Virus record (IMG/VR): IMGVR_UViG_3300013137_000004
Span: 1 to 43,642 of that record
Source of the DNA: a virus
Length of the DNA: 43,642 nucleotides
Direction: 5' to 3' (one strand)
The notes below the pieces were generated by a model that had not been told where the DNA came from, searched no databases, and worked only from the letters and a program-made list of their open reading frames with translations. The position numbers and the translations under genes are program-made. Within the stretch, counting starts at the first letter, position 1. Every line of letters starts with the position of its first letter. This document shows, one piece after another, positions 6,077 to 43,642 of the stretch.

Positions 6077-6301
6077 TTATATCACTTCAAAATCTGTAGA
6101 ACTATCAACCTGCATCGTCCTTATTTCAATTCCGACAAAAATATCATCACCCCTGTCAATCGGCTCTGACTGCACCACAAATTCGGTTGATTGGTCGAAT
6201 ACTGGTATTTCAGCATAAACAACCGGCTTATAATTATAAAGCTGGTATTCGCTTGTTTCTAAAATTCCGTTAAATATGAGTCCGTAAAGTTCCTTTTGCA
6301 T
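6077..6301 (-). CDS. Small conserved-type phage tail protein, unknown
   Basis: 74 residues, beginning MQKELYGLIFNGILE. It reads like the short proteins often found beside phage fibre genes, with a PVVYAEIPVFDQSTEFVVQSEPI core and a D/E-rich end. Its start lies inside the 3' end of the reverse transcriptase gene (32 bp overlap), so the two are probably translated together. It is not helical and shows no resemblance to the DGR accessory protein Avd. Confidence 0.6.
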   Translation of the reverse strand: MQKELYGLIFNGILETSEYQLYNYKPVVYAEIPVFDQSTEFVVQSEPIDRGDDIFVGIEIRTMQVDSSTDFEVI

Positions 6302-7325
6302 AATTACTCACAATCTTTTTTGCTAAATTAATATTTAATATTTCTTTAATATATTTATTGTAAAATTTGTAACTATTACTCCGTTTTATCCAACCCCAAT
6401 ATGATATTACCGCACAAGCGTCTTTGCGACTGGCTTCGTTTTTTCTATTGATTTTTACCATACGGCGTTTGACTCTCAAACAATTTCTTTTTCGCAGTAT
6501 CGTCTTATTTTTGAAAAACCGTAATCCTAAAAAATCAATCGCTCTGTCTTTAACTGGTGAAATTTGCCAGTTGTCTTTCATTTTTAATTTTATTCTCGCA
6601 AGATATTTTTCAATTTCTTTTCTTGCTTTGTGGAGTTTTCGCTTATTACCTCCCAATATAACCAAGTCGTCAACATAACGGATATAATAATTTATGCCTA
6701 ATTCTTCCTTAATAAAGTGGTCAAGTCCCTGCATAAAAAAGTTCGAAAACCACTGACTTGTATAATTTCCAATCGGCAGCCCTTTGTTACTGTTAATAAT
6801 TTCCTCAATTAAATATATGCAATCTTGGTCTTTTATTTTGTTGCGGAACATTTGCTTTAATATATCGTTATCAACAGAGTTATAAAACTTTGAAATGTCC
6901 ATTTTAAGGCAATATTTCGTTCCTCGGTGGTCTGTGTCCAACCAATGCCTTAAAATCTTCTGTCCGTGGCTTGTGCCTCGATTTGGAACACTTCCACAAT
7001 TATACTCATACATTCCGCTCATAATAATATCGTGAAGTTGAAGCATTAAAGCCCAATGTATTATCTGATCTGGGAAATATCTCGGCTTAAATATCACCCG
7101 CTCTTTTTTGTTCGCCCCGTCAAGTATTGTTTTGATGGTGTAGGGCGAAGCCTTGTAACTCTTATTTACAAGCATTTTTTGCACTTCCTTGGAATAATAA
7201 TCAATGTTGTCTAAAACTTTTTTAACGAACTTCTTATTGCGTTTTCCCGCTGAAGATTTGTGTATTGCCTTGCGGATATTTTCAATGTCGCAAATTTTAT
7301 CGTAAATAAAGCCTACTCGTTTCAT
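6270..7325 (-). CDS. DGR-type reverse transcriptase
   Basis: 351 residues, the usual length for a diversity-generating retroelement RT. Motifs in order: VIFKPRYFPDQIIHWAL near residue 78, catalytic Asp143 in LKMDISKFYNSVD, LPIGNYTSQWFSNFFM at 183-198 (the [IVL]GxxxSQ signature of DGR RTs), catalytic YVDD at 217-220, then RAIDFLGLRF near 261. No maturase or endonuclease domain is present, which argues against a group II intron. It makes mutagenised cDNA from the template repeat lying 123 bp upstream of its start. The order target, template, RT on the minus strand is the common DGR layout. Confidence 0.93.
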   Translation of the reverse strand: MKRVGFIYDKICDIENIRKAIHKSSAGKRNKKFVKKVLDNIDYYSKEVQKMLVNKSYKASPYTIKTILDGANKKERVIFKPRYFPDQIIHWALMLQLHDIIMSGMYEYNCGSVPNRGTSHGQKILRHWLDTDHRGTKYCLKMDISKFYNSVDNDILKQMFRNKIKDQDCIYLIEEIINSNKGLPIGNYTSQWFSNFFMQGLDHFIKEELGINYYIRYVDDLVILGGNKRKLHKARKEIEKYLARIKLKMKDNWQISPVKDRAIDFLGLRFFKNKTILRKRNCLRVKRRMVKINRKNEASRKDACAVISYWGWIKRSNSYKFYNKYIKEILNINLAKKIVSNYAKGTLRTHI

Positions 7326-7448
7326 TAATTACTTTCTTATTAGCCTCAAGGTATTTCGAGAATAAACCTACTAAACCCTGCTCTTAACGGCTTAATTTTC
7401 ACCAAGGGGTGAGGAATATGGAATGCAAGTTTTTAATAATAAATCTAA

Positions 7449-7561
7449 TAAGAGTCTGACCGCCAATGTTCACATTCGTGTTAGACGAGGTGTTATTCAA
7501 GTTCCAGTAGAACAGCCCCGTATTCGTACCGTTGTTCCAGTTACCGCCGAATTGAGCGACC
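7449..7561 (-). repeat. DGR template repeat (TR)
   Basis: These 113 bp match 7646-7758 with a fixed offset of 197. In the coding (minus) sense the TR has 31 adenines. Of these, 21 differ in the variable repeat, while only 2 of the 82 other positions differ, one near each end. This is the hallmark of adenine-directed mutagenesis. Read in the target's frame, TR is rich in Asn codons (AAC/AAT) at the diversified positions, as usual for DGRs. It lies outside any gene, between target and RT. Confidence 0.93.
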
Positions 7562-7605
7562 ACGCACTCCATATCCCTATGTTATTTAATTGTTAATTTT
7601 ATATA

Positions 7606-7623
7606 TGGGAGAGGTATCTCCCA
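7606..7623 (-). promoter_or_regulatory. Hairpin/cruciform downstream of the DGR variable repeat
   Basis: A perfect 7-bp stem (TGGGAGA/TCTCCCA) with a 4-nt loop lies 8 bp beyond the target gene's stop codon, between VR and TR. In the Bordetella phage DGR a similar short-loop hairpin just downstream of the VR is needed for efficient retrohoming. The position and size match, and the homing role here is by analogy. It has no following T-run in the minus direction, so it is not a typical terminator. Confidence 0.65.
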
Positions 7624-7631
7624 AACCCTCT

Positions 7632-8990
7632 CTAAAGAGCTTTTTTAAGAAGCCGACCGCCAACGACCACATTCGCGTTAGACGAGGTGCTATACAAGTC
7701 CCAGAAGAACAGCCCCGCAGACGCACCGCTGCGCCAGCAACCGCCGAAGCCAGCGACCCTTTGTCCTGTGTTTCTGTAATAATAATCAGAATAATAGGTA
7801 TTTGACGCTCCACCTGTTGAAACTACTGGCAATTCCGCAAACTGTAAATTTGAACCAAAGCCCATTTGCTTGGTATATCCGTCTGAATTTGCATTAACAT
7901 ACCCAAGTTGTTCATAAGGACTAGCAAAGACATTGGATGTATAATTGCTTGCGTCCTTGCAAACCCAACCTTGATATTCATTGATATTTAAGCCGTCAAT
8001 CCATTGGTAAACGCTACCGTAAATGTTTTCAATTCCCCTGTAAATAAATGGACTTTTACCGTCTGAATTGCTGGTTAAACTTCCGCTTGAAGCAACGATA
8101 TTTGAACTAAATCCACTCTTCCAACCAGTGTTATAAAGAAAATTACCAACAGCAATATTGACTGTCGTTCCGTCAAAAGTAATTGCCTTGTTGCTTGCAT
8201 CATAAACATCAATAGAGGTAATAGTTCGTCCATAACAAATTTGATTTCCACCCTGCGAAGTTCCAATGCTTATAGGTTGACCAACCGCATATAAATTGGC
8301 GTTAGCGTTGGCGAGTATAATTCTGTTGGTGTTGCTCTCTGCAACAGTGGCAAGGTGCGTTGCCGTGTATTGTCCGCTTGTCCAACCATTCATTATTGCT
8401 TGTGAATTTAAGTTTGCAAACTCAACTAAAAACAAGCATTGTAATAAATCGGTTGTATGGATATCCATTTGTTGATAACCATTGTAGAGGTTGCCTGCGT
8501 TTCCATATGCTCTGGCGTAAGTGCGAAAATCAACAATAGTTTTGCTGATTAAAGGATATTTATCCTCCTTGCTTTCAAGCTTATTATCCCCACTCAAAGA
8601 CCCAACATATTTACCTATGTCAAAGTAGGGCAATTCACGACTATTTGCAAAATCCCAAAAACACATTGGCAAATAAAATCCAAAGTATTGTTTTTTAGAA
8701 ATCTCTATCTTTTTAATTCCGACTACATCGGTTTTTTTAATATAGAACTTTGGAATGCGAATAAACACATTTCCAAAACTATCGGTAACTTGTTTTATTT
8801 CCTTATAAATCTCGGCATTATCAAAGTCATTTCTAACTGGTGTATTTCCAACACCTGCGTTGGCGACCATTCCGATAGCGTCACCAGTCCTTGTCAAAAC
8901 TGTGCCAGAGTTTTTGTCCCAACTAACACCGTAAATTTTAGTTTGAGAAATTCCGTCAATAATTCTGCGGAACCTTAACCTATTTGGCAT
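7632..8990 (-). CDS. DGR target protein with C-terminal lectin-fold variable domain (putative receptor-binding tip)
   Basis: 452 residues. The C-terminal third has the features of a C-type-lectin/formylglycine-type DGR target: IYGSVYQWIDGLNI, QLGYVNANSDGYTKQMGF, and a final variable segment FGGCWRSG...LFFWDLYST...NVVVGGRLL. The variable repeat covers about residues 411-448. Comparison with the template shows diversified residues at 418, 420, 421, 423, 424, 425, 429, 431, 433, 434, 439, 442, 443, 446 and 447. The N-terminal region (TDLLQCLFLVEFANLNSQ, VRNDFDNAEIYKEI) resembles phage proteins that carry such domains. It sits among fibre-like genes, so host-receptor binding is the likely role. 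The diversification is seen directly; the binding partner is unknown. Confidence 0.9.
   Translation of the reverse strand: MPNRLRFRRIIDGISQTKIYGVSWDKNSGTVLTRTGDAIGMVANAGVGNTPVRNDFDNAEIYKEIKQVTDSFGNVFIRIPKFYIKKTDVVGIKKIEISKKQYFGFYLPMCFWDFANSRELPYFDIGKYVGSLSGDNKLESKEDKYPLISKTIVDFRTYARAYGNAGNLYNGYQQMDIHTTDLLQCLFLVEFANLNSQAIMNGWTSGQYTATHLATVAESNTNRIILANANANLYAVGQPISIGTSQGGNQICYGRTITSIDVYDASNKAITFDGTTVNIAVGNFLYNTGWKSGFSSNIVASSGSLTSNSDGKSPFIYRGIENIYGSVYQWIDGLNINEYQGWVCKDASNYTSNVFASPYEQLGYVNANSDGYTKQMGFGSNLQFAELPVVSTGGASNTYYSDYYYRNTGQRVAGFGGCWRSGASAGLFFWDLYSTSSNANVVVGGRLLKKAL
7646..7758 (-). repeat. DGR variable repeat (VR)
   Basis: The 3' end of the target gene, matching the template repeat at 7449-7561. 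Template codons for N, T, Y and Q have become C, R, S, A, D, Y, F, V and L. The unchanged framework (GG-W, GLF-W, TSSN-N, GG) keeps the lectin fold. The last 25 or so bp on the 3' side, with one non-adenine mismatch, are the likely IMH/IMH* region that sets the direction of transfer. Confidence 0.92.
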
Positions 8991-9000
8991 TTTAGGCTCC

Positions 9001-9897
9001 TTAGTTTAATTCTGTGTTCAATTTGATTGTGAATTTTTGACCAGCGTCAGGAGTGAAAGCGTCCAAGGTTTCAATAGCAATAAAAATTGAAGTCGTTGCG
9101 TCTGCACATTTGAAAGGTACTCGAACAGTAGCGTCCATTGTTCGGCTCATATCTGAATTTGTAGTATCGGCAGCAGTAACCATTGCAGGCAGGTCAACAT
9201 AGGTAACTCTTTTGGCAGCATCAGCGTATTTATCTTGCCAAGGGAGATTGTCGGCTGAAATTGTCGGATTAGAAGCATTGAAAAAATGCAACCTTAGTCT
9301 TGGAGTTATTGATTTTTTATTAGTAGAAACTCTTATTTGTGTAATATAACCGCTACCACCAGCAATGCGAGCGACATTAGTAATTTCACTTAAACCGCCA
9401 GCAGCAGGAGTAACAGCATCATTTGCAGCATAAGCAGTAGCGTCAGGGGTGGCACGAGTTATCTCAACAGAAGAAACAACGGTACGACCTCCGGTTTCGC
9501 CGATATGACTTTCACTTGCACTTCCAAATTGATACAGACCAATATTAAGATCAAAAACCATCGCCGGGTTGGTACCACCGACAAAGGTAAGAGTATAAAC
9601 CGATCGGATATACTGAAAACCTTGAATATTAATCGAAAGAGAAGTAATCCCAAGAGCAGTTTGGGCCGGGAAAGAACCTCCGGTTATGTCAACCCAATCC
9701 TCATTATTAACCGATCCCTGTAATTTAACTTTTAGAGAGTAACTTGTTGGCGAACCGGAAACTGATTTAATATTAATAACTGGAACGATAGCACTAGAAA
9801 GATTAACTTGAATCGCCGCAGAAATAACACTTGCCCCGGCCGACTTGCTAACCAAAGGAATTAGTACCTGATTGTCTTGCCTTAAAATAACGCTCAT
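9001..9897 (-). CDS. Beta-rich virion surface protein, unknown
   Basis: 298 residues, beta-rich, with two parts. Residues 1-125 resemble a decoration-type sandwich (LIPLVSKSAGASVISAAIQVNL and a VKLQGSVNNEDW strand). Residues 140-298 contain the phage-wide pattern AGGLSEITNVARIAGGSGYITQI, then LHFFNASNPT and IAIETLDAFTPDAGQKF. It is placed 10 bp upstream of the DGR target gene, so the two are probably co-expressed and may sit in the same complex. A capsid or fibre surface role is inferred. A GGAGG site precedes the ATG. Confidence 0.6.
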   Translation of the reverse strand: MSVILRQDNQVLIPLVSKSAGASVISAAIQVNLSSAIVPVINIKSVSGSPTSYSLKVKLQGSVNNEDWVDITGGSFPAQTALGITSLSINIQGFQYIRSVYTLTFVGGTNPAMVFDLNIGLYQFGSASESHIGETGGRTVVSSVEITRATPDATAYAANDAVTPAAGGLSEITNVARIAGGSGYITQIRVSTNKKSITPRLRLHFFNASNPTISADNLPWQDKYADAAKRVTYVDLPAMVTAADTTNSDMSRTMDATVRVPFKCADATTSIFIAIETLDAFTPDAGQKFTIKLNTELN

Positions 9898-18718: not shown

Positions 18719-18761
18719 ATTTGCCCTCGCTTTTCTTTTTTGCCTTAAATCATTTGACTAT

Positions 18762-18789
18762 ATTATAAAACAATTCAAGGAAGAGTGAA
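18762..18789 (-). promoter_or_regulatory. Late-operon promoter before terminase
   Basis: On the minus strand, a perfect TATAAT (18767-18762) with TTCACT as a -35 (18789-18784) at 16 bp. An AATACTGCAA motif (18789-18798) abuts the -35, the same motif that recurs in the rightward promoters. RNA would start about 35 bp before the terS ATG. Confidence 0.5.
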
Positions 18790-18838
18790 ATACTGCAAAT
18801 TTGCCTTCAAAACGCAAAAGTACCCTTGCTAACGCAAA

Positions 18839-18985
18839 AGAGGCCGGGCAAGACCTCTCTTGGGAGCATCGGAGGCGGCAAATACCTCCTTAAAAAGTGC
18901 GCTCGATATAATTATCCCATATTTGCTTGAATGGAGGGAGGGGAGTAGTTGCCGAGACGCTATGCTCTCGTTTTTACGCCCCTCC
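18839..18985. other. Three hairpins between the leader peptide and terS
   Basis: Stems lie at 18839-18858 (AGAGG/CCTCT), 18871-18889 (GGAGG/CCTCC) and 18937-18985 (GGAGGGG/CCCCTCC enclosing CGAGA/TCTCG at 18953-18970). On the plus strand the inner stem is followed by TTTTT, so it could stop stray rightward RNA. On the minus strand the three stems follow a translated 21-codon frame, an arrangement reminiscent of attenuators. The regulatory idea is inference. Confidence 0.45.
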
Positions 18986-18999
18986 GCCGGAAAGTAGTG

Positions 19000-19065
19000 C
19001 TAACGGACTTGCCGTTGGCGCCGTGCGCGGATCTTCATCAGCCACTTGCGATATTTACCGGTCAT
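19000..19065 (-). CDS. 21-residue Arg/Lys-rich leader peptide
   Basis: A 21-codon frame with 9 Arg/Lys residues (starts MTGKYRKW, ends RRQRQVR). Its ribosome site is an ideal match to the 16S rRNA tail: AAGGAGGTG 6 bp before ATG, much better than those of most genes here. A perfect TATAAT (19093-19088, minus) lies just upstream. It precedes the hairpins before terS. It could be a regulatory leader peptide, a small nucleic-acid-binding protein or a host-acting toxin; no homologue is recognised. Confidence 0.55.
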   Translation of the reverse strand: MTGKYRKWLMKIRARRQRQVR

Positions 19066-19087
19066 GGCGGACACCTCCTTAATAATT

Positions 19088-19093
19088 ATTATA
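19088..19093 (-). promoter_or_regulatory. -10 element before the 21-residue leader peptide
   Basis: A perfect TATAAT on the minus strand ending 22 bp before the leader peptide's start codon. No good -35 is visible at 16-18 bp, so it may need an activator. Confidence 0.35.
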
Positions 19094-19144
19094 GTCCTAT
19101 CACAAACAAAATGCTCGGTTGAAAAGTTATCCACAAGGTAGTAA

Positions 19145-19174
19145 TTGACCGATTTGGCCGGACAGCGCTAGAAT
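19145..19174 (+). promoter_or_regulatory. Rightward sigma70-type promoter
   Basis: TTGACC (19145-19150) and TAGAAT (19169-19174) with an 18-bp spacer. It would produce a short RNA that starts near 19181 and ends at the hairpin plus T6 at 19320-19344. Confidence 0.5.
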
Positions 19175-19226
19175 AAGGACACAAGAAAAAAGCGAAAGCT
19201 TATCAATAATTTAAGAGAGGGTTTAT

Positions 19227-19334
19227 ATGCGACATTTGACAGACACAACGCAATACTGTAAATTGAATGTGGTTATAAATCCTTTCTTATTGATAGGTAA
19301 ATCTTGTCCAAACGGCCTGCTAACTTTATGTTAG
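19227..19334 (+). CDS. Possible 35-residue peptide in a short transcript
   Basis: An open frame of 35 codons (MRHLTDTTQYCKLN at the start, GLLTLC at the end) after a GAGAGGG ribosome site. It lies inside the small transcription unit between the promoter at 19145 and the terminator at 19320, and its stop codon falls in the terminator stem. It may instead be a non-coding small RNA. No homologue is recognised. Confidence 0.3.
   Translation: MRHLTDTTQYCKLNVVINPFLLIGKSCPNGLLTLC
19236..19264 (+). promoter_or_regulatory. Possible promoter with AATACTG motif in the spacer
   Basis: TTGACA (19236-19241), 17 bp, TAAATT (19259-19264). The motif CAATACTGTA (19251-19260) fills the 3' end of the spacer and abuts the -10, as at 20208-20236. 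It overlaps the small frame at 19227-19334, so only one of the two may matter. Confidence 0.35.
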
Positions 19335-19344
19335 TGGGTTTTTT
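19320..19344 (+). terminator. Intrinsic terminator of the short rightward transcript
   Basis: Stem CTAAC/GTTAG with a 5-nt loop (19320-19334), followed by TTTTTT at 19339-19344. The stem is short, so efficiency is uncertain. Confidence 0.45.
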
Positions 19345-19364
19345 GGTTGTGTTTTTGTTTGAGC

Positions 19365-19970
19365 GCCCCTACTGCTAATTGCGACCCCGGCCGGGTGTAT
19401 GTAGGGGGCTAAAACTAGAACATAATATGCTGAAGTGCCTACGGTTAGAATACCGCCTCTCGCTTCAGGGAAGAATGGCTTAATGAGAGGATACCTTCTG
19501 GGTGAAGCCCGCCGGACTGAAATCCAGCGTCCTTGCACGGAGGGAATAAAAAAACGGAAGATCCTATGCTGAAAAGGATCCGTACACTACTTTCCAACCA
19601 ATGAGACATGGCCGTAAGCACTACGCTACCAAAAGCTCGCCGGAAAGAGTGATAACGAGCGACTATTCGTACCCGGAGGGAAAAACCGGTCGTTACAAAA
19701 AGCTCTTAAGCTTCCGTAACCGAAGAGCATTACCGAATACCACTTGGAGAGAGGGGGGTAAGGGGGGTGTGTGGCGGCTTACAGCCGTAACAGACCGAAC
19801 ATACGGATCTTAAGATCCTTCGGATCAACACCATTTCCTCGGGATTCTTGTCCTTACCGGAGTGTAAGATTTTTACCCGAATTGGTAATTTCGCTTACCT
19901 GTTTAGGTAAATTTCTTATCGAGAAATAGCAGTATTGCCGGTCGTTTTTACCTTTGTTGGTTTTACACTC
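19365..19970 (+). ncRNA. Candidate large structured non-coding RNA region
   Basis: About 600 bp without a convincing gene but dense in stems: 19365-19372/19401-19409 enclosing the palindrome 19386-19395; CCTCTC/GAGAGG at 19456-19490; CGGCT/AGCCG at 19775-19787; a 14-bp palindrome at 19805-19818; and a domain closed by GAGTGTAA/TTACACTC (19860-19867/19963-19970) holding two perfect 6-bp hairpins at 19895-19910 and 19911-19927. Phage intergenic regions of this size sometimes hold large RNAs such as GOLLD or ROOL, but I see no diagnostic motif for either. Strand and ends are uncertain. Confidence 0.4.
19631..19680 (+). repeat. Structured repeat, copy 1
   Basis: Shares AAAAGCTCGC, AGTGATAACGAG and a TACC-CGGAGG tail with a second, shorter copy at 20286-20320. 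GCTCG/CGAGC can pair in this copy, so the repeat is probably an RNA hairpin motif. Confidence 0.45.
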
Positions 19971-20039
19971 TAGGCCATATTGTAGTTCGGAATTTCCCCA
20001 TCGGTTATTTGGCAATAAAGTGCATTATTTGTCAATCTA

Positions 20040-20067
20040 ATGTCGCATAACAATCATTATACGACAT
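20040..20067. repeat. 28-bp imperfect inverted repeat (possible operator)
   Basis: ATGTCG and ATAA on the left mirror TTAT and CGACAT on the right around a 6-bp centre, with one mismatched pair between the blocks. It lies in the gap between the divergent operons, about 25 bp upstream of a TTGACA. Size and symmetry suit a dimeric repressor site; a hairpin is the alternative. Confidence 0.5.
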
Positions 20068-20207
20068 AACTTGAGCGTGAGGGGGGTTTAACACTTGACA
20101 AAAATAACATATTACAACACATTTTGAGCTATTTCAAAGCTTTTTAAGCTCGAGCCGATAGAGAACGGCAAAAATCAAGCAATTCCAAGATCGTTGGGTG
20201 TCTTGAC

Positions 20208-20236
20208 TTGACACGCCTTCGGCGATACTGCAAAAT
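20208..20236 (+). promoter_or_regulatory. Possible rightward promoter with AATACTG-type motif
   Basis: TTGACA (20208-20213), 17-bp spacer, CAAAAT (20231-20236). The motif GATACTGCAA (20224-20233) overlaps the spacer end and the -10. Same geometry as 19236-19264. Confidence 0.4.
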
Positions 20237-20285
20237 CGCTACGCTACGCGCTAATTGTTTTATTGCTTCCAGTCTTTAAGAGCTT

Positions 20286-20320
20286 AAAAGCTCGCTAGTG
20301 ATAACGAGATACCGGAGGGG
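20286..20320 (+). repeat. Structured repeat, copy 2
   Basis: Second copy of the motif at 19631-19680: AAAAGCTCGC, then AGTGATAACGAG and TACCGGAGG, with shorter connecting segments. The flanking 20070-20500 stretch otherwise holds only AT-rich or short-stem sequence and no supported gene. Confidence 0.45.
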
Positions 20321-20511
20321 GGTATTCTGAAAGTAACCGCCGGACAAATAACGGCTAACGCCGGACGCTTTAAGCTTTCCGGCTTTTCAGATCGTAAGCG
20401 ATCAAGGAAAGCTCACAAGTTCGCACCTCTAAAAAAGCATAAAATACTCAATACAGAAGCCAATAATCAAGCAAAGCAATACTGCAATCGCTTTCTAACC
20501 TACTAAAGCTA

Positions 20512-29847: not shown

Positions 29848-30120
29848 ATGAAACAAGAAGAAAATATAGTCATCATCAAAGAGGGCATAATCGGTAGTAT
29901 TATCACCGATTTTGTGAGCTTTGGTGTTTTGGCCGCAATGCTATGGATAAACTTCGCGTATTTAGGCAATCAATGGCTTATCACCCTGTTTATCCTGACA
30001 ATTTGGTTTTTAGAAATGATGATGAGATCGAAAGACCTTCACAATTTGCATCGTTTCAAATCGGTCGATGAAGCTTTACTATTCTTAAATGAGCTGAAAG
30101 GGGATAAAAAGAATGGCTAA
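29848..30120 (+). CDS. Two-span membrane protein, unknown
   Basis: 90 residues with two hydrophobic segments (about 13-35 and 42-58) joined by a short loop, then a polar tail that ends GDKKNG. It ends inside the GroEL start (8-bp overlap), so expression is linked. It may be a holin or membrane anchor, although its place before GroEL does not favour lysis. Confidence 0.55.
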   Translation: MKQEENIVIIKEGIIGSIITDFVSFGVLAAMLWINFAYLGNQWLITLFILTIWFLEMMMRSKDLHNLHRFKSVDEALLFLNELKGDKKNG

Positions 30121-31723
30121 TAAAGAATTATTATTTGATAGAGAGGCGCAGGAAAAATTGCTTTCCGGCGTCAATCAAGTCGCGAATGCGGTTCGCATTA
30201 CTCTCGGGGCCAAAGGCCGGAATGTAATGTTTTCGAATCACGCCTTCGGGATTGCTCCTCGAGTTACTAATGACGGTGTTACCATCGCCAAAGAGATCAA
30301 GCTCAAAGATCCTTTTGAGGACATGGGCGCACAACTCATTATCGAGGTAGCGCAGAAGACCAATGAGACTTCAGGAGATGGCACAACGACCGCCACGATC
30401 CTCGCTCAAGCGATTATCGCCGAAGGATTGAAGAATGTAGCGGCCGGTGCAAATTCTATCGAGATTAAGAGAGGAATTGAGCTTGGCGTTGCAAAGGTTG
30501 TCGGGAAGCTTAAAAAGATGGCTACTCCGATTGTCGATCAAAAAGACATTGAAAAGGTAGCAACCGTTTCGTCCGGCGATCCCGAGATTGGTAAAATCAT
30601 CGGCGAAGTCTTCTCTATTATCGGCAAGGACGGCATTATCTCCGTTGAGGAATCCGGCCATATCGGACTTTCAAAGGATATTGTCGAGGGTATCAAATTT
30701 CCGAAAGGACTTTTCCACCCTTACCTTGTGAATAATAAAGAGAAGATGGTTTGCGAGATCGAGGATCCGGTTATTCTGATTACTGATAAGAAAATCACAA
30801 TGACCGATGAGATCGTCCCGATCCTTAGCAAAATCGCTCAAAGCGGTATCAAAGAGATTGCAATCATAGCTGACGATATTCACGCCGAGGCCTTGAATGC
30901 TATCATCACCAACAAATTGCGCGGTGTAATTGATGTTTGCGCAGTTCCGGCTCCCGGATTTGGCGAAAACAAAAAAGAATTGCTTGGCGACATTGCGGCC
31001 ATTACCGGCGCTACCCTCATAACTTCCGAGGCAGGTATCGAATTGGAAAACTTTGAGATTGGAATGCTCGGGAAAGCTCGCAGAATTATTGCCGATCAGT
31101 ATTCGACCACGATTGTTGACGGCAAAGGAGATAAGAAGGCAATCAAGGAGAGAGAAAATCAGATCCGAACATTGCTTAAAAAGGCCACCGATGGCAATCA
31201 GAAGATGCTTTTGACTGATCGTCTTGCCAAGATCACCGGCGGATTTGCCGTTATCGGAGTTGGCGCTATCTCGGAGATCGAGCTTAAGGAAAAGAAGTTC
31301 AAGTTAGAAGATGCCGTTGAAGCGGCCAAAGCGGCCATTGAAGAGGGAATAATACCCGGGGGGGGTATCGCTCTTTTGAACTGTCTTTACGCGGTTGACT
31401 ACACCGAGAATCAAGAAGTCGGTACCGGTATGGAGATTATCAATCGTGCGATTCTCTATCCGATCAAGCAGATTGCTTCAAATGCCGGAGAAAATGGCGA
31501 TGCAATCATCAAAGAGATCAAACATAGAGTTGGAATGCTCGGGCCGGTTGGTGGAGAAGTCTTCGGTTGGAATTGTAAAACCAACGAATACGGCTCCATG
31601 ATTAACATGGGTATTATTGATCCGGTCAAGGTAACAAGGTGCGCTTTGGAAAACGCCGCTAGCGTGGCGATGATGATCCTCACGACTGAAGTATTAATCA
31701 CCGATGAGGTCGTAAAAGCATGA
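30113..31723 (+). CDS. groEL: Phage-encoded GroEL chaperonin
   Basis: 536 residues, full length for the family. It has the GroEL nucleotide signatures TLGAKGRNV (31-39) and [16 protein letters not shown] (near 86), TKDGV-like [13 protein letters not shown], the apical-domain blocks PYLVNN and [21 protein letters not shown], and PGGGIALLN of the intermediate/equatorial region. It lacks the usual Gly-Gly-Met tail and ends LITDEVVKA. It folds proteins in its chamber with a GroES lid; a GroES-like gene lies beside the capsid genes on the other strand. Phage-encoded GroEL is known but rare in small genomes. Confidence 0.95.
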
Positions 31724-32887: not shown

Positions 32888-33211
32888 GTGAAAATAATGC
32901 TAAAACCGGTGAGCGTCAATCGCGCATGGCAAGGACGCCGATTTAAGACAAAGGAATATAAAGATTTTGAAGAACAAATGCTTTGGACTTTGAAGGGTTG
33001 GCGCAAACGGACGAACGGCAATTACGAGATACATTTCAAGTTCCATCTCAAGAATGCCGCCGCTTCCGATTTAAGCAACTTTATCAAGACAACCGAGGAT
33101 TGCATTGTAAAAGCCGGCATTGTTAAGGACGATAGATATTGTTGGCGCATGGTAATAGAAAAATTTAGAAGCGAAGTCGATTGTTTCGAATTCGAGATTA
33201 AGGACTTATGA
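32888..33211 (+). CDS. rusA: RusA-type Holliday junction resolvase
   Basis: 107 residues from a GTG start 5 bp after GGAGGGG. The family pattern is clear: PVSVNRAWQGRRF, KEYKDFEEQ, then ASDLSNFIKTTEDCIVKAGIVKDDRYC with the acidic residues Asp61, Asp71 and Asp81/82 expected at the active site. RusA cuts four-way DNA junctions in recombination and before packaging. It overlaps the following gene by 4 bp. Confidence 0.85.
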   Translation: MKIMLKPVSVNRAWQGRRFKTKEYKDFEEQMLWTLKGWRKRTNGNYEIHFKFHLKNAAASDLSNFIKTTEDCIVKAGIVKDDRYCWRMVIEKFRSEVDCFEFEIKDL

Positions 33212-33687
33212 ATCAAATTAACATTATTGGCGGAGGGTTGGCCGGTTGCGTGATCGCAAGACGGCTAGCCGATAAGGGGAAAAATGTTAAAGATTTCGAC
33301 TTGACCGGAAAAATTGTATTAACTGGCGCTATTGATGAGTATTTTGACAACTGTTATGGCAAGTTACCCTACCGAGGCATGAAAGCGGTACATTTTGAAT
33401 CAGAAGTACCACTTGAGGGCGACTTTGTTACTTTTTCGGACGAGCTTATTCCGTTTCAGCGATTGGTCGATTATCACCGGCTCGGATATGAGGGGAATTG
33501 GATCGGCCTCGAGGTCGCTTGCAATGAGAAGCATTACCCGATTCGGGACAAGGAGAGCGAAAAAATCTATAATAAGTACAAGCAATTAGCCGAGAGAAAA
33601 GGAGTAACCTTAGCCGGACGGCTTGGGACATACCACTATCTCGACATGGACGAAGTAATTGAGCAAGCTTTAGAAATTAAATTATAA
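33208..33687 (+). CDS. Internally shortened UDP-galactopyranose mutase-like protein
   Basis: 159 residues against about 370-390 for normal Glf. The N-terminus has the dinucleotide (FAD) signature INIIGGGLAGCVIARRLADKG (residues 4-24), followed straight away by the late part of the family: KIVLTGAIDEYFDNCYGKLPYRG, then YRLVDYHR-type, YPIRDKES-, GRLGTYHYLDMDEVIEQAL. The central roughly 200 residues (the helical substrate domain) are missing, joined cleanly in frame. It may keep FAD binding but with changed chemistry, or be a regulatory remnant. It begins the sugar cassette. Confidence 0.75.
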   Translation: MNQINIIGGGLAGCVIARRLADKGKNVKDFDLTGKIVLTGAIDEYFDNCYGKLPYRGMKAVHFESEVPLEGDFVTFSDELIPFQRLVDYHRLGYEGNWIGLEVACNEKHYPIRDKESEKIYNKYKQLAERKGVTLAGRLGTYHYLDMDEVIEQALEIKL

Positions 33688-33704
33688 GTAGAATGGAGGG
33701 CATT

Positions 33705-34718
33705 ATGCCAAAGAGAGTGCTTATCACCGGTATTTCCGGTTTCATCGGGGCGCATTTCGTGGATCATTTTTTAGCTAAAACCGATTGGGAAGTGATCGGG
33801 ATTGATTCGTTCAGACACAAAGGCATCGCCGAGCGTATTCTTGATTCAGAATACTACAAAGCGAACAAAGAGCGCGTAACTATTTACACGCATGACCTTA
33901 CCGCGCCACTATCCGAGATCTTGAAAAACAGAATCGGCAAAGTGGACTACATTATTAATATGGCCTCTCAAAGTCATGTTGACCGCTCAATCACCGATCC
34001 GGTTCCTTTTATCAAAAACAATGTTGATTTAGCATTAAATATCTTGGAGTACGCTCGAGAATATAAGCCGGAGAAATTAATTCAGATTTCTACCGATGAG
34101 GTCTATGGGCCGATTAAGGAAGAAGGCCACCCCGAGTGGGCGCCGATTCTACCTTCGAATCCTTATTCGGCTTCCAAAGCGGCTCAAGAGGCAATCGCAG
34201 TCTCGTATTGGCGAACATACGGCTTGCCGGTGATGATTACTAATACAATGAATGTGATCGGAGAGCGCCAAGATCCCGAGAAATATGTGCCGAAGTGCAT
34301 CAAGTGCATCACAACCGGCGAGAGTCTCACTATTCACGCGCAGGGCGAGAAGATCGGCACTCGATTTTATCTTCATGCTCGCAACTTCGCCGATGCAATC
34401 CTCTTTATTTTGAATAATGTTAAGCCGGCAATGTACCCTGAAGCCGACCGGCCGGAGAGATTCAATATCGTTGGTAAAACCGAATTGGATAATTTGACGC
34501 TCGCTCAAATGATCGCCGAGATTATGGGTAAGCCATTAAATTACGAGCTTGTCGATGTTCATTCAACGCGCCCCGGCCATGATCTGCGGTACGGCTTGGA
34601 CGGCAAAAAGCTTGCTGATCTCGGCTACAATTTTCCGGTTTCATTCGAAGATTCTCTTAAACAAACAATTAAATGGCACATGGCTAGGGAGAACGAGGAA
34701 TGGCAAAGTATAAAGTAA
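33705..34718 (+). CDS. dTDP-glucose 4,6-dehydratase-like NAD(P) sugar epimerase/dehydratase
   Basis: 337 residues from the ATG at 33705 after TGGAGGG. Extended SDR signatures: GISGFIG Rossmann loop (9-15), ISTDEVYGP, and NPYSASKAAQ with the catalytic Tyr-Lys near residue 150. The TDE-VYG acidic pair fits 4,6-dehydratases. C-terminal parts (RPGHDLRYGLDGKKLADLGY) match RmlB-like enzymes. It would make a 4-keto-6-deoxy nucleotide sugar. It overlaps the glycosyltransferase downstream by 19 bp. Confidence 0.85.
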   Translation: MPKRVLITGISGFIGAHFVDHFLAKTDWEVIGIDSFRHKGIAERILDSEYYKANKERVTIYTHDLTAPLSEILKNRIGKVDYIINMASQSHVDRSITDPVPFIKNNVDLALNILEYAREYKPEKLIQISTDEVYGPIKEEGHPEWAPILPSNPYSASKAAQEAIAVSYWRTYGLPVMITNTMNVIGERQDPEKYVPKCIKCITTGESLTIHAQGEKIGTRFYLHARNFADAILFILNNVKPAMYPEADRPERFNIVGKTELDNLTLAQMIAEIMGKPLNYELVDVHSTRPGHDLRYGLDGKKLADLGYNFPVSFEDSLKQTIKWHMARENEEWQSIK

Positions 34719-35491
34719 AATATGCCGTTTCCGTCATATTTGCCACTTGGAATCGCAAGGAAATGCTCGAGCGGTCGTTGATATCATACGAAAAACAGAC
34801 CGAGAAGGATTTTGAGATTATTGCGATTTCTGATGATTGCACGGACGGCACCTACGAGATGCTCCGTGCTTGGCAGAAGAAGCTTGATATTAAGATCATC
34901 ACTCTTTCAAAAGAGCCGGGCAAATGGCGTGATTGCTCTTCGATCATCAATCTTGGTATCTCGATGTCTCGTGGCCGAGTTTGTATTTTGACACAGCCGG
35001 AGGTAATACCCGGCTTAGATGTCGTCAAGATTGCGGCGCAAACCGAAGATTGGCAATGGATCGGATTCAAACCATACTGGCTTCAGCAAGAAATTCAAGA
35101 CAAAATTGATCTCTATCCGTGGCGAGAATTTGGCCCGATTGCTTTCCGACAACACCCCGGATTTTATGATTTGCCCTCCGTCAATGTTACCGAGGAATAT
35201 GCTCACCGGAGTATGGAAAATCATTCAATTTGGCAATCTTGGACGATCGGAGCAATGACAAGAAAGACACTCTTCGAGATTGGCGGATTGCAAGAATACG
35301 AATTGTGGGGAACGGTTGATGTCGATTTTATGCACCGCCGAGCCATTCTTGAGATCCCGACAATTACGCCGATGGAAGATAGCGCGCTTTGCGCCCATCA
35401 ATGGCACGAAAGTCCTCGCCACATGGAAGCGAGTATGGCGATCTTAAAAACATACAACACGAGAGAGGAAGCGATATTATGCAACTTATGA
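34700..35491 (+). CDS. Family 2-type glycosyltransferase
   Basis: 263 residues. The N-terminus VSVIFATWNRKEMLERSLISYEKQ and SDDCTDGT are GT-A/GT2 features, with EIIAIS and NLGISMSRGRVCILTQPEV at the usual place of the DxD metal site; that motif is replaced by TQPE. The ELWGTVDVDFMHRR region is typical of the catalytic acid side. It probably transfers an activated sugar onto phage or host glycan. It overlaps neighbours on both sides. Confidence 0.8.
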   Translation: MAKYKVKYAVSVIFATWNRKEMLERSLISYEKQTEKDFEIIAISDDCTDGTYEMLRAWQKKLDIKIITLSKEPGKWRDCSSIINLGISMSRGRVCILTQPEVIPGLDVVKIAAQTEDWQWIGFKPYWLQQEIQDKIDLYPWREFGPIAFRQHPGFYDLPSVNVTEEYAHRSMENHSIWQSWTIGAMTRKTLFEIGGLQEYELWGTVDVDFMHRRAILEIPTITPMEDSALCAHQWHESPRHMEASMAILKTYNTREEAILCNL

Positions 35492-36003
35492 AATTAAATA
35501 TCGGTTGCAATCAATGGAAGCTCAAAGGATTTCACAACATTGATATTGATCCGGCCGTAAATCCCGATGAGGTCGTTGACGGCCTGAATATGCCTTATCC
35601 CGATAAGTCGATTCAGACAATTTACGCCGGACACTTCCTCGAGCATTTATCTTGGGAAGAAGGGCAATTATTTTTCAAAAAATGTTATGCCCTTCTCATT
35701 CCGGGCGGCGAGATAATGATTGTCGTACCCGACTTCGAATGGGTAGCGAGAGAGTACACGGACAACCGGACGAAGCTTAAAAAGCTCAATGATATGTTTA
35801 TTTATTCTTACGAGCAGAAAGAGCATGTCGCCGGAGAGCTAATCTCTCGCCATAAGTATTGTTACGATGACAATCTTTTGAAGCAAGCATTGCAGGAGAG
35901 CGGATTCGTCAAAATTAAAAAGATGCCGCAAAATCACCCTTATTATGTAGCGCCGGTTGCTTGGCAAATCGGTTGGAAAGGAGTTAAACCAAATGGAAAA
36001 TAA
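35479..36003 (+). CDS. SAM-dependent methyltransferase-like protein
   Basis: 174 residues from the ATG at 35479. A longer frame back to 35389 is probably not used because it overlaps the GT2 gene without a ribosome site. Class I methyltransferase cues: LNIGCNQWKLKGFHNIDID (glycine-poor motif I), then DGLNMPYPDKSIQTIYAGHFLEHL and LIPGGEIMIVVPDFE. It may methylate a sugar or glycan in this cassette. Confidence 0.75.
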   Translation: MQLMKLNIGCNQWKLKGFHNIDIDPAVNPDEVVDGLNMPYPDKSIQTIYAGHFLEHLSWEEGQLFFKKCYALLIPGGEIMIVVPDFEWVAREYTDNRTKLKKLNDMFIYSYEQKEHVAGELISRHKYCYDDNLLKQALQESGFVKIKKMPQNHPYYVAPVAWQIGWKGVKPNGK

Positions 36004-37048
36004 ATTAAAGATCCTCTACATCAACAATCGACCGGAGCCGGACGGTTGTGCGATGTACCGCAATATCATTCCGGCCGAAGGATTGCAAAGTCTCGGTTGG
36101 GATCCACACTTCTTGCCGATCCCCGAGAATGATCCCTTCGACTACGATATTGTCGTTTTTAGCCGGATCTATCAGCTCTCCGGCATTAAGCCGATTGTTG
36201 AAATGCTTAGAAAGAAGAGTAAGGCGAAAATTGTGTACGATACCGATGATCTGATTGACCATATTGCGCCGGACAATCCTTTTCAGTCCGAGATCAACAA
36301 AAAGGAGTTGGTCGGATCATACCTCTATTTTCTCGACAATGCTGATCTCGTTACTGTAACGACCGATTATTTGAAGCAAGAAATTGCGAAGAGGCGTAGC
36401 GGAGCTATTGCCGTAGTGCCGAATGCCGTTCGAGAGATCAAAATCAGAGATCGAAGAGAGCCGCGCGTCCGCGTTCTCTACTCCGGTAGTGATACCCACT
36501 TTCCCGATCTCAACATTTTCCTTGATGTTTTCTTGGATCTTCAAAAGAAATACGATATTGAGTTAGTTACTCAATCAATCGGCAAGAATAAGTATTTTGA
36601 GCAAAATTACGCTCATTTGCCTATGGTAATGAAGCCGTACAACGAGTGCATGGAAAAGATCAAAAAGGTTAAGCATTATCAATTCGTCAAGAATGTTCAT
36701 TGTTTTGAATATGTCGATATGCTTCGAAGTATTGATGCCACAATCGGCGTTTGCCCTCTCCACGATGATAAATTCACGCGATGCAAATCGGCTATCAAAT
36801 ACTACGATTGGGCGGCCATCGGCACAGTTACTTTGGCGCAGAAATGCGTTGCCTACGAAGATTGTAATTTCACAGCTCGATCATACTCCGATTGGAAAAA
36901 TAAATTAGAATGCCTTATCACCGACATACCGTTGAGAAATAGTATTCTGAAATCGCAAATCAAATATGTAATTGAAAACCGGTACATTGATGTCGTCCGG
37001 TATCAATGGGATCAGGTCTATCGAGATCTTCTAGCCGGAAAAATATAA
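35993..37048 (+). CDS. GT4-like glycosyltransferase
   Basis: 351 residues from the ATG at 35993 after AAAGGAG. Two Rossmann-like halves: KILYINNRPEPDGCAMYRN and VYDTDDLIDHIAPDNP in the first; VRVLYSGSDTHFPDL, VPNAVREIKI and IKYYDWAAIGT with a conserved acidic/Tyr region in the second. This is a GT-B layout close to family 4. It is the last rightward gene, ending 8 bp before the bidirectional terminator. Confidence 0.8.
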   Translation: MENKLKILYINNRPEPDGCAMYRNIIPAEGLQSLGWDPHFLPIPENDPFDYDIVVFSRIYQLSGIKPIVEMLRKKSKAKIVYDTDDLIDHIAPDNPFQSEINKKELVGSYLYFLDNADLVTVTTDYLKQEIAKRRSGAIAVVPNAVREIKIRDRREPRVRVLYSGSDTHFPDLNIFLDVFLDLQKKYDIELVTQSIGKNKYFEQNYAHLPMVMKPYNECMEKIKKVKHYQFVKNVHCFEYVDMLRSIDATIGVCPLHDDKFTRCKSAIKYYDWAAIGTVTLAQKCVAYEDCNFTARSYSDWKNKLECLITDIPLRNSILKSQIKYVIENRYIDVVRYQWDQVYRDLLAGKI

Positions 37049-43389: not shown

Positions 43390-43642
43390 TTATCCTTTCA
43401 AATGAGGATATTTGCTAGCAATCGCATTTCCGATAGAGGCATTGGAAAGTCCTTGTCTTTGCATGAGTGAGATAGCCGTAGCAATATCTTTATCGCCCTG
43501 ATTAGATGAAGATTGAAAGACTTTTTTCATGTCGTTAATATCAATCACACCGTTACCTTTGGCCGCGAAATACTCAAATGGAGCGGTAGGCACTCCTCTA
43601 TCATCGTAGAAATCAAAGCCGGTAATATCACCGTCTGCATTC
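43390..43642 (-). CDS. LysM-domain virion protein, C-terminal end (continuation of the gene at 1-1043)
   Basis: Continues in frame from position 1 across the repeat. The extra C-terminal part is a short Gln/Ser/Ala-rich stretch ending in YPHLKG. It ends 4 bp upstream of the next late gene (start at 43385), as expected within one operon. Confidence 0.85.
   Translation of the reverse strand, partial: NADGDITGFDFYDDRGVPTAPFEYFAAKGNGVIDINDMKKVFQSSSNQGDKDIATAISLMQRQGLSNASIGNAIASKYPHLKG
43520..43642. repeat. Terminal direct repeat, copy B
   Basis: Exact second copy of bases 1-123. Removing it gives a unique circle of about 43,519 bp. Both copies lie inside the coding sequence of the LysM-domain protein. 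Confidence 0.9.

Follow-up and report, generated by a model that had tools for sequence, protein, structure and literature searches.

An Avd-less diversity-generating retroelement in a phage genome and the pairing of its spacer RNA with the template repeat

The window analysed here is the whole 43,642-nt stretch of the viral record IMGVR_UViG_3300013137_000004. On its minus strand, a reverse transcriptase (RT) gene lies near a 113-nt template repeat (TR), and the direct copy of TR, the variable repeat (VR), is found at the 3′ end of a neighbouring target gene. Is this a diversity-generating retroelement (DGR) that still diversifies a virion protein, and which of its parts would direct the process? 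Tens of thousands of DGRs have been reported (PMC8144416), and the one in the window is of a common type and is documented unusually well. We hold with high confidence that it is a complete, currently active phage DGR without the accessory protein Avd, working by the mechanism proposed below. The DGR reading of the preliminary description is supported by the adenine bias between TR and VR, the class of the RT, the TaqVP-like fold predicted for the target, and a hairpin after VR.

The window begins and ends with an exact 123-bp direct repeat (1-123 and 43520-43642), compatible with an assembly overlap or with a complete genome that is either circular or terminally redundant; the sequence is probably complete. 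It also encodes a GroEL chaperonin (536 aa; 30113-31723, plus strand) that exceeds the NCBIfam GroEL cut-off and, at 33208-37048 (plus strand), sugar-nucleotide/glycosyltransferase-like genes (UDP-galactopyranose-mutase-like and dTDP-glucose-dehydratase-like). A region of ~ 1.7 kb at ~ 18720-20450, where two operon directions meet, is free of ORFs longer than ~ 70 aa.

Template and variable repeats

The features of the cassette, all on the minus strand, were arranged in the order p298, target gene with VR at its 3′ end, hairpin, TR, spacer, RT and p74. The BPP-1 DGR (mtd-avd-TR-brt) shares the order of target/VR, TR, spacer and RT, as well as A-specific mutation. VR (7646-7758) corresponds to residues ~ 411-448 of the 452-residue target, and TR occupies positions 7449-7561. 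The preliminary description gave the same limits and reported differences at 21 of 31 template adenines and at 2 of the 82 other bases; recomputation returned these values exactly (hypergeometric p = 2.6e-13). The mismatches at template adenines, characteristic of a DGR, comprised twelve A>G, five A>T and four A>C changes, accompanied by one C>G and one C>T. Elsewhere in the window, no second VR was present at ≤ 3 mismatches (0 expected by shuffling). A VR-TR pair was detectable at 62 of 69 related RT loci examined, and the adenine bias pointed toward the copy nearer the RT.

To read these differences position by position, 33 related loci were aligned on the TR-spacer helix described below, and positions were numbered relative to it. 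Upstream of the helix, 593 of 911 A sites were mismatched versus 23 of 2,323 other bases (~ 1%). At the 3′ end, a TR adenine differed from VR at −8 in 10/10 cases, at −4 in 21/21 and at −2 in 24/24, and the base at −1, a C/T site, differed in 27/32. In the window, the 3′-most differences (the TR adenines at −4 and −2 and the TR cytosine at −1; VR positions 7654, 7652 and 7651) recurred in all four cassette VRs. Since these differences are near-constant across the 33 loci, we read them as IMH/IMH*-like fixed differences, as in BPP-1, and not as fresh mutagenesis. The IMH-like segment of VR spans 7646-7658; further upstream, the differences among the loci look random, as expected on the two sides of an IMH/IMH* boundary. 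Setting aside the two A and one C fixed differences leaves 19/29 adenines versus 1/81 other bases. The preliminary description had taken all 21 of 31 as direct evidence of adenine mutagenesis; about 19 of 29 appear to deserve that interpretation, and the two remaining A differences, together with one of the two non-A differences, are fixed in the lineage.

The hairpin (7606-7623) lies 22 nt after the IMH-like segment and consists of a 7-bp stem, TGGGAGA/TCTCCCA, and a 4-nt loop. BPP-1 also has a hairpin after VR, and this positive control was recovered by our scan, which found a hairpin at 27 of 28 lineage loci, mostly at the same place. The loop in the window differs from the GRNA consensus of PMC3240598.

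Receptor-binding genes of phages often recombine, and ordinary recombination between strains, together with diversifying selection, could be invoked for the variation in VR. Such a process, however, has no means of tracking the adenines of another, non-coding repeat at a distance of 197 nt, and the non-A bases and flanks are almost unchanged. We therefore give this explanation practically no weight.

Reverse transcriptase and sister contigs

The RT (351 aa; 6270-7325) contains the IGNYTSQ and YVDD motifs, just as the preliminary description had placed them beside the repeats. The protein matched PF00078 (E = 9e-16) and phrog_1423 (E = 1e-103), and its best PDB sequence match was 8ub7_A, ‘Reverse transcriptase’ (E = 2e-28), at double the bit score of the runner-up. 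We take 8ub7 to be the RT of BPP-1 (bRT). In a tree of 22 rows, with few outgroups and one retron on a very long branch, the RT grouped with those of BPP-1, LBR48, Arawn, crAss-like, Epona and other DGRs, while group II introns and retron Ec86 fell outside. The DGR rows shared one side of a branch with support of 92/84, found in 98% of bootstrap trees. The affinity with retrons or group II introns, against which the preliminary description wished the RT to be checked, was thus not recovered, and the enzyme belongs to the DGR clade in this tree.

An RT derived from a retron, group II intron or defence system, next to a coincidental repeat, would be hinted at by weak NCBIfam matches to group II (87.9 of 300 bits), retron St85 (76.2 of 235) and Drt3a (68 of 200) models. 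All of these lie far below cut-off, and no group II intron or retron RT family model in NCBIfam exceeded its curated threshold. Both the tree and the motif oppose such an origin, and most relatives share the VR-TR-RT architecture with its A bias, so that we regard it as extremely improbable. Among phage DGRs, the RT of Lactobacillus phage LBR48 is 49% identical over 99%, and the RTs of Butyrivibrio phages Arawn and Idris are 45% identical. The RT relatives in bacterial genomes (L107-L139) were mostly from Bacillota, with the best ones, from Salirhabdus and Alkalihalobacillus, at 64%.

Scanning IMG/VR with the RT yielded three sister contigs from other IMG metagenomes, L002, L003 and L004 (IMGVR_UViG_3300013126_000204). 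L002 differs from the window at five positions in 7,516 bp, and all five are VR sites at which TR has A (binomial p ~ 1e-12). L003 shows 19 differences in 4,181 bp, of which 17 are at such sites (binomial p ~ 1e-34); one of the remaining two is a VR position where L003 matches TR, and the other is elsewhere in the target. TR shows no difference among the window, L002 and L003, and carries one change in L004. The VR of L004 is 23% divergent from that of the window (TR-A sites account for 22 of the 26 differences), compared with 5% divergence in the RT gene, 7.5% in the target outside VR, and an almost unchanged spacer and TR. Over TR, its short 3′ flank and the RT-18 RNA discussed below, only 2 of 229 bases differ between L004 and the window.

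These comparisons bear on whether the element is dead, a relic with old differences in VR. One TR/VR comparison by itself gives no age for the changes, and some of the 3′ differences are indeed fixed. Nevertheless, the sister genomes that are nearly identical to the window depart from it at TR-A sites of VR and hardly anywhere else, the RT is open and conserved, and so are TR, the spacer and the hairpin; a relic is very unlikely. The evenly spread variation that would have spoken against adenine mutagenesis was looked for at the contig level, where the changes in L002 and L003 were almost confined to TR-A sites, and the element called active-looking in the preliminary description is, judging from three assembled consensus contigs that are blind to within-sample frequencies, currently active in nature. 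The population data agree with RT-dependent mutagenic retrohoming.

Spacer RNA and its helix with the template repeat

The spacer (7326-7448, 123 nt) occupies a position between TR and RT that is conserved across the lineage, and it contains a structured RNA with covarying helices, as is known for DGRs. At 7333-7411, the spacer scored 73.6 bits with the covariance model of Rfam RT-18 (RF03021; gathering threshold 41.3 bits), and this was the only RT-18 match in the record. RT-18 occurred once per record and above threshold in 13 of 15 records tested, and in the loci scanned locally the match sat between TR and RT. LBR48 has an RT-18 spacer as well, whereas the match in Arawn is below cut-off, and BPP-1 has none. 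We found no paper on RT-18 in a literature search. The slot between TR and RT in a more distant DGR (L092, 2771-2858) is filled by Rfam RT-17, suggesting that RT-17 may also be a DGR spacer.

RNAalifold, run on 36 sequences and unprompted, paired the 3′ end of TR (TCTTATTAG, 7445-7453, spanning the TR 3′ edge) with the 3′ end of the spacer (CTAATAAGA, 7335-7343). In this helix, 99.3% of cells were paired and five of eight pairs had changes on both sides. None of 500 shuffles gave a structure as good as that of the whole RNA, which was also better than all slid versions. The RT-18 match covers only the 3′ arm, so Rfam RT-18 as catalogued misses the TR-spacer helix. In more distant DGRs, the corresponding helix had a mean length of 6.7 bp versus 5.3 bp in shuffles and was mostly non-significant individually, which is only suggestive; we do not claim that the helix is universal.

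The 3′ arm adjoins A7334 and A7333, which are candidate priming nucleotides. In BPP-1, 7 bp of complementarity link TR to the spacer segment immediately before spacer nucleotide A56, which we take to be the priming nucleotide. An internal spacer adenine has been reported to prime cDNA in IMH* (PMC12875486). Because of these two observations, the helix in the window probably serves as a cDNA-priming scaffold and would keep the primer positioned at the 3′ junction of TR.

In the mechanism that we propose, the template would be an RNA transcribed from the 3′ end of the target gene onward, across both TR and the spacer. The RT-18 spacer would pair with the TR 3′ end and bring a spacer adenosine beside the TR 3′ junction, where the RT would start the cDNA, by analogy with BPP-1. 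Misincorporation by the RT opposite template adenines would follow, and the cDNA would replace VR as far as the IMH-like segment and the hairpin. The expected outcome is a virion protein of lectin fold with randomised residues on its ligand face, and this protein most likely binds the host receptor.

Target protein and exchange of the cassette between phages

The target gene (7632-8990) encodes 452 residues. Searches of PDB and Pfam, by single sequence or by profile, returned no usable match, and in a first full-length AF2 model the VR region was unusable and no significant PDB match was obtained. When the alignment was deepened for the 322 C-terminal residues, the AF2 model of residues 131-452 reached a mean pLDDT of 91.8 and a pTM of 0.88. 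The best Foldseek match of this model in the PDB was the Thermus aquaticus DGR variable protein, TaqVP (5vf4; E = 1.2e-6, TMq 0.46), and TaqVP chains were the only significant matches. The lectin fold claimed in the preliminary description thereby gains structural support from a predicted model, in which VR falls at the C-terminal end of a C-type-lectin-like DGR variable-protein domain (~ residues 131-452). The closest fold is that of TaqVP and not of Mtd, the BPP-1 target; LBR48 carries a related target C-terminus.

The target matched tail protein phrog_5302 (E = 7e-50), and the best match of the full-length model in a viral structure library was ‘Tail collar fiber protein’ (E = 2e-25). We consider the target a likely receptor-binding tip protein, presumably seated at the tail tip, of a phage that appears to be a podovirus (the window has a P22-type portal above cut-off and an SU10-type adaptor just below its cut-off). 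In most relatives surveyed, the cassette has tail/baseplate genes upstream and lysis (endolysin) genes downstream; in Arawn, the DGR is found where the tail genes end, and in LBR48, a contractile-tailed phage, it follows the baseplate genes. The window and L004 are unusual among the relatives in that the cassette lies between the major capsid and head-tail adaptor genes. This location, together with the phage-specific N-terminus of p298, the likely anchor, would suit a target displayed by the head or neck, either as decoration or as an adhesion fibre, with the DGR machinery unchanged. However, the homologues of the target are classed as tail or tail collar fibre proteins, and gene order is a weak indicator of virion position for a cassette that is clearly mobile. 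A head or neck location thus seems to us unlikely, and a tail-tip protein seems the likelier reading.

Avd (Pfam bAvd, PF22296), which BPP-1 needs, was found neither in the window record nor in 15 further records of DGR phages, several of which are fragments; the search recovered the BPP-1 protein as a positive control (E = 2e-37). Likewise, no Avd was found in Arawn. A different small gene, p74 (74 codons; 6077-6301), overlaps the RT stop codon, as a small gene does in BPP-1, and homologues of p74 are found at the same place in ~ 34 loci. Family searches gave no match for p74, and it has no detectable similarity to BPP-1 bbp4 or to the small post-RT genes of three other DGR phages. In the comparison with LBR48, likewise, no homology to p74 was detectable. 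On contig L014 (8962-10655), a related target with a VR-like end is followed by a p74-like gene; no DGR RT was found on this 30.8-kb contig, and L013, from the same sample, carries the RT. Since a relative of p74 follows the target on L014, where no RT was found, we think it more probable that p74 works with the target than with the RT.

The cassette of L004 encodes an RT 97% and a target 95% identical to those of the window, with a nearly identical spacer, and yet the phage that hosts it is unrelated. L004 has its own scaffold, capsid, connectors and tape measure, i.e. it is a long-tailed phage, and its capsid and connectors are unrelated to those of the window; the window terminase was not found on L004, which is a fragment. 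Homology between the two ends beyond the C-terminal domain of p298 and p74. The upstream structural gene p298 (9001-9897) contains the join: its C-terminal ~ 172 aa (9001-9519) belong to the cassette and are 82% identical in L004 and 70% in L018, while the N-termini are unrelated in all three. The window junctions were reproduced in L002 and L003, and those of L004 rest on one contig. Divergence at four-fold sites between the window and L004 was 14% for the RT and 21% for the target, versus 49% for the p298 C-terminal domain and 43% for p74. The simplest reading is a nested exchange, with an older shared module followed by a more recent swap of its core; the cassette has moved between unrelated phages, probably recently.

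Beyond the window, we lean slightly towards a wider proposal. The RT-18 RNAs, and probably also RT-17, would supply the spacer and the priming of cDNA in a lineage of phage DGRs that lack Avd, and the covarying helix between the 3′ ends of TR and spacer, with its 5′ arm outside the span of the Rfam model, would be the scaffold fixing where mutagenic cDNA begins. The unit formed by the C-terminal half of the anchor protein, the hypervariable lectin, the TR/spacer RNA, the RT and p74 would be swapped among phages of differing virion architecture as a plug-in adhesion module.

Two points merit following, in our view: the RT-18 assignment together with the TR-spacer helix, and the exchange of the module between phages. 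An Rfam family listed merely as gene/sRNA would gain a concrete role, testable by reconstitution, and the near-isogenic contigs make natural diversification visible at base resolution. Finally, the exchange join within a structural gene suggests how a hypervariable binding module may be fitted to different virions.
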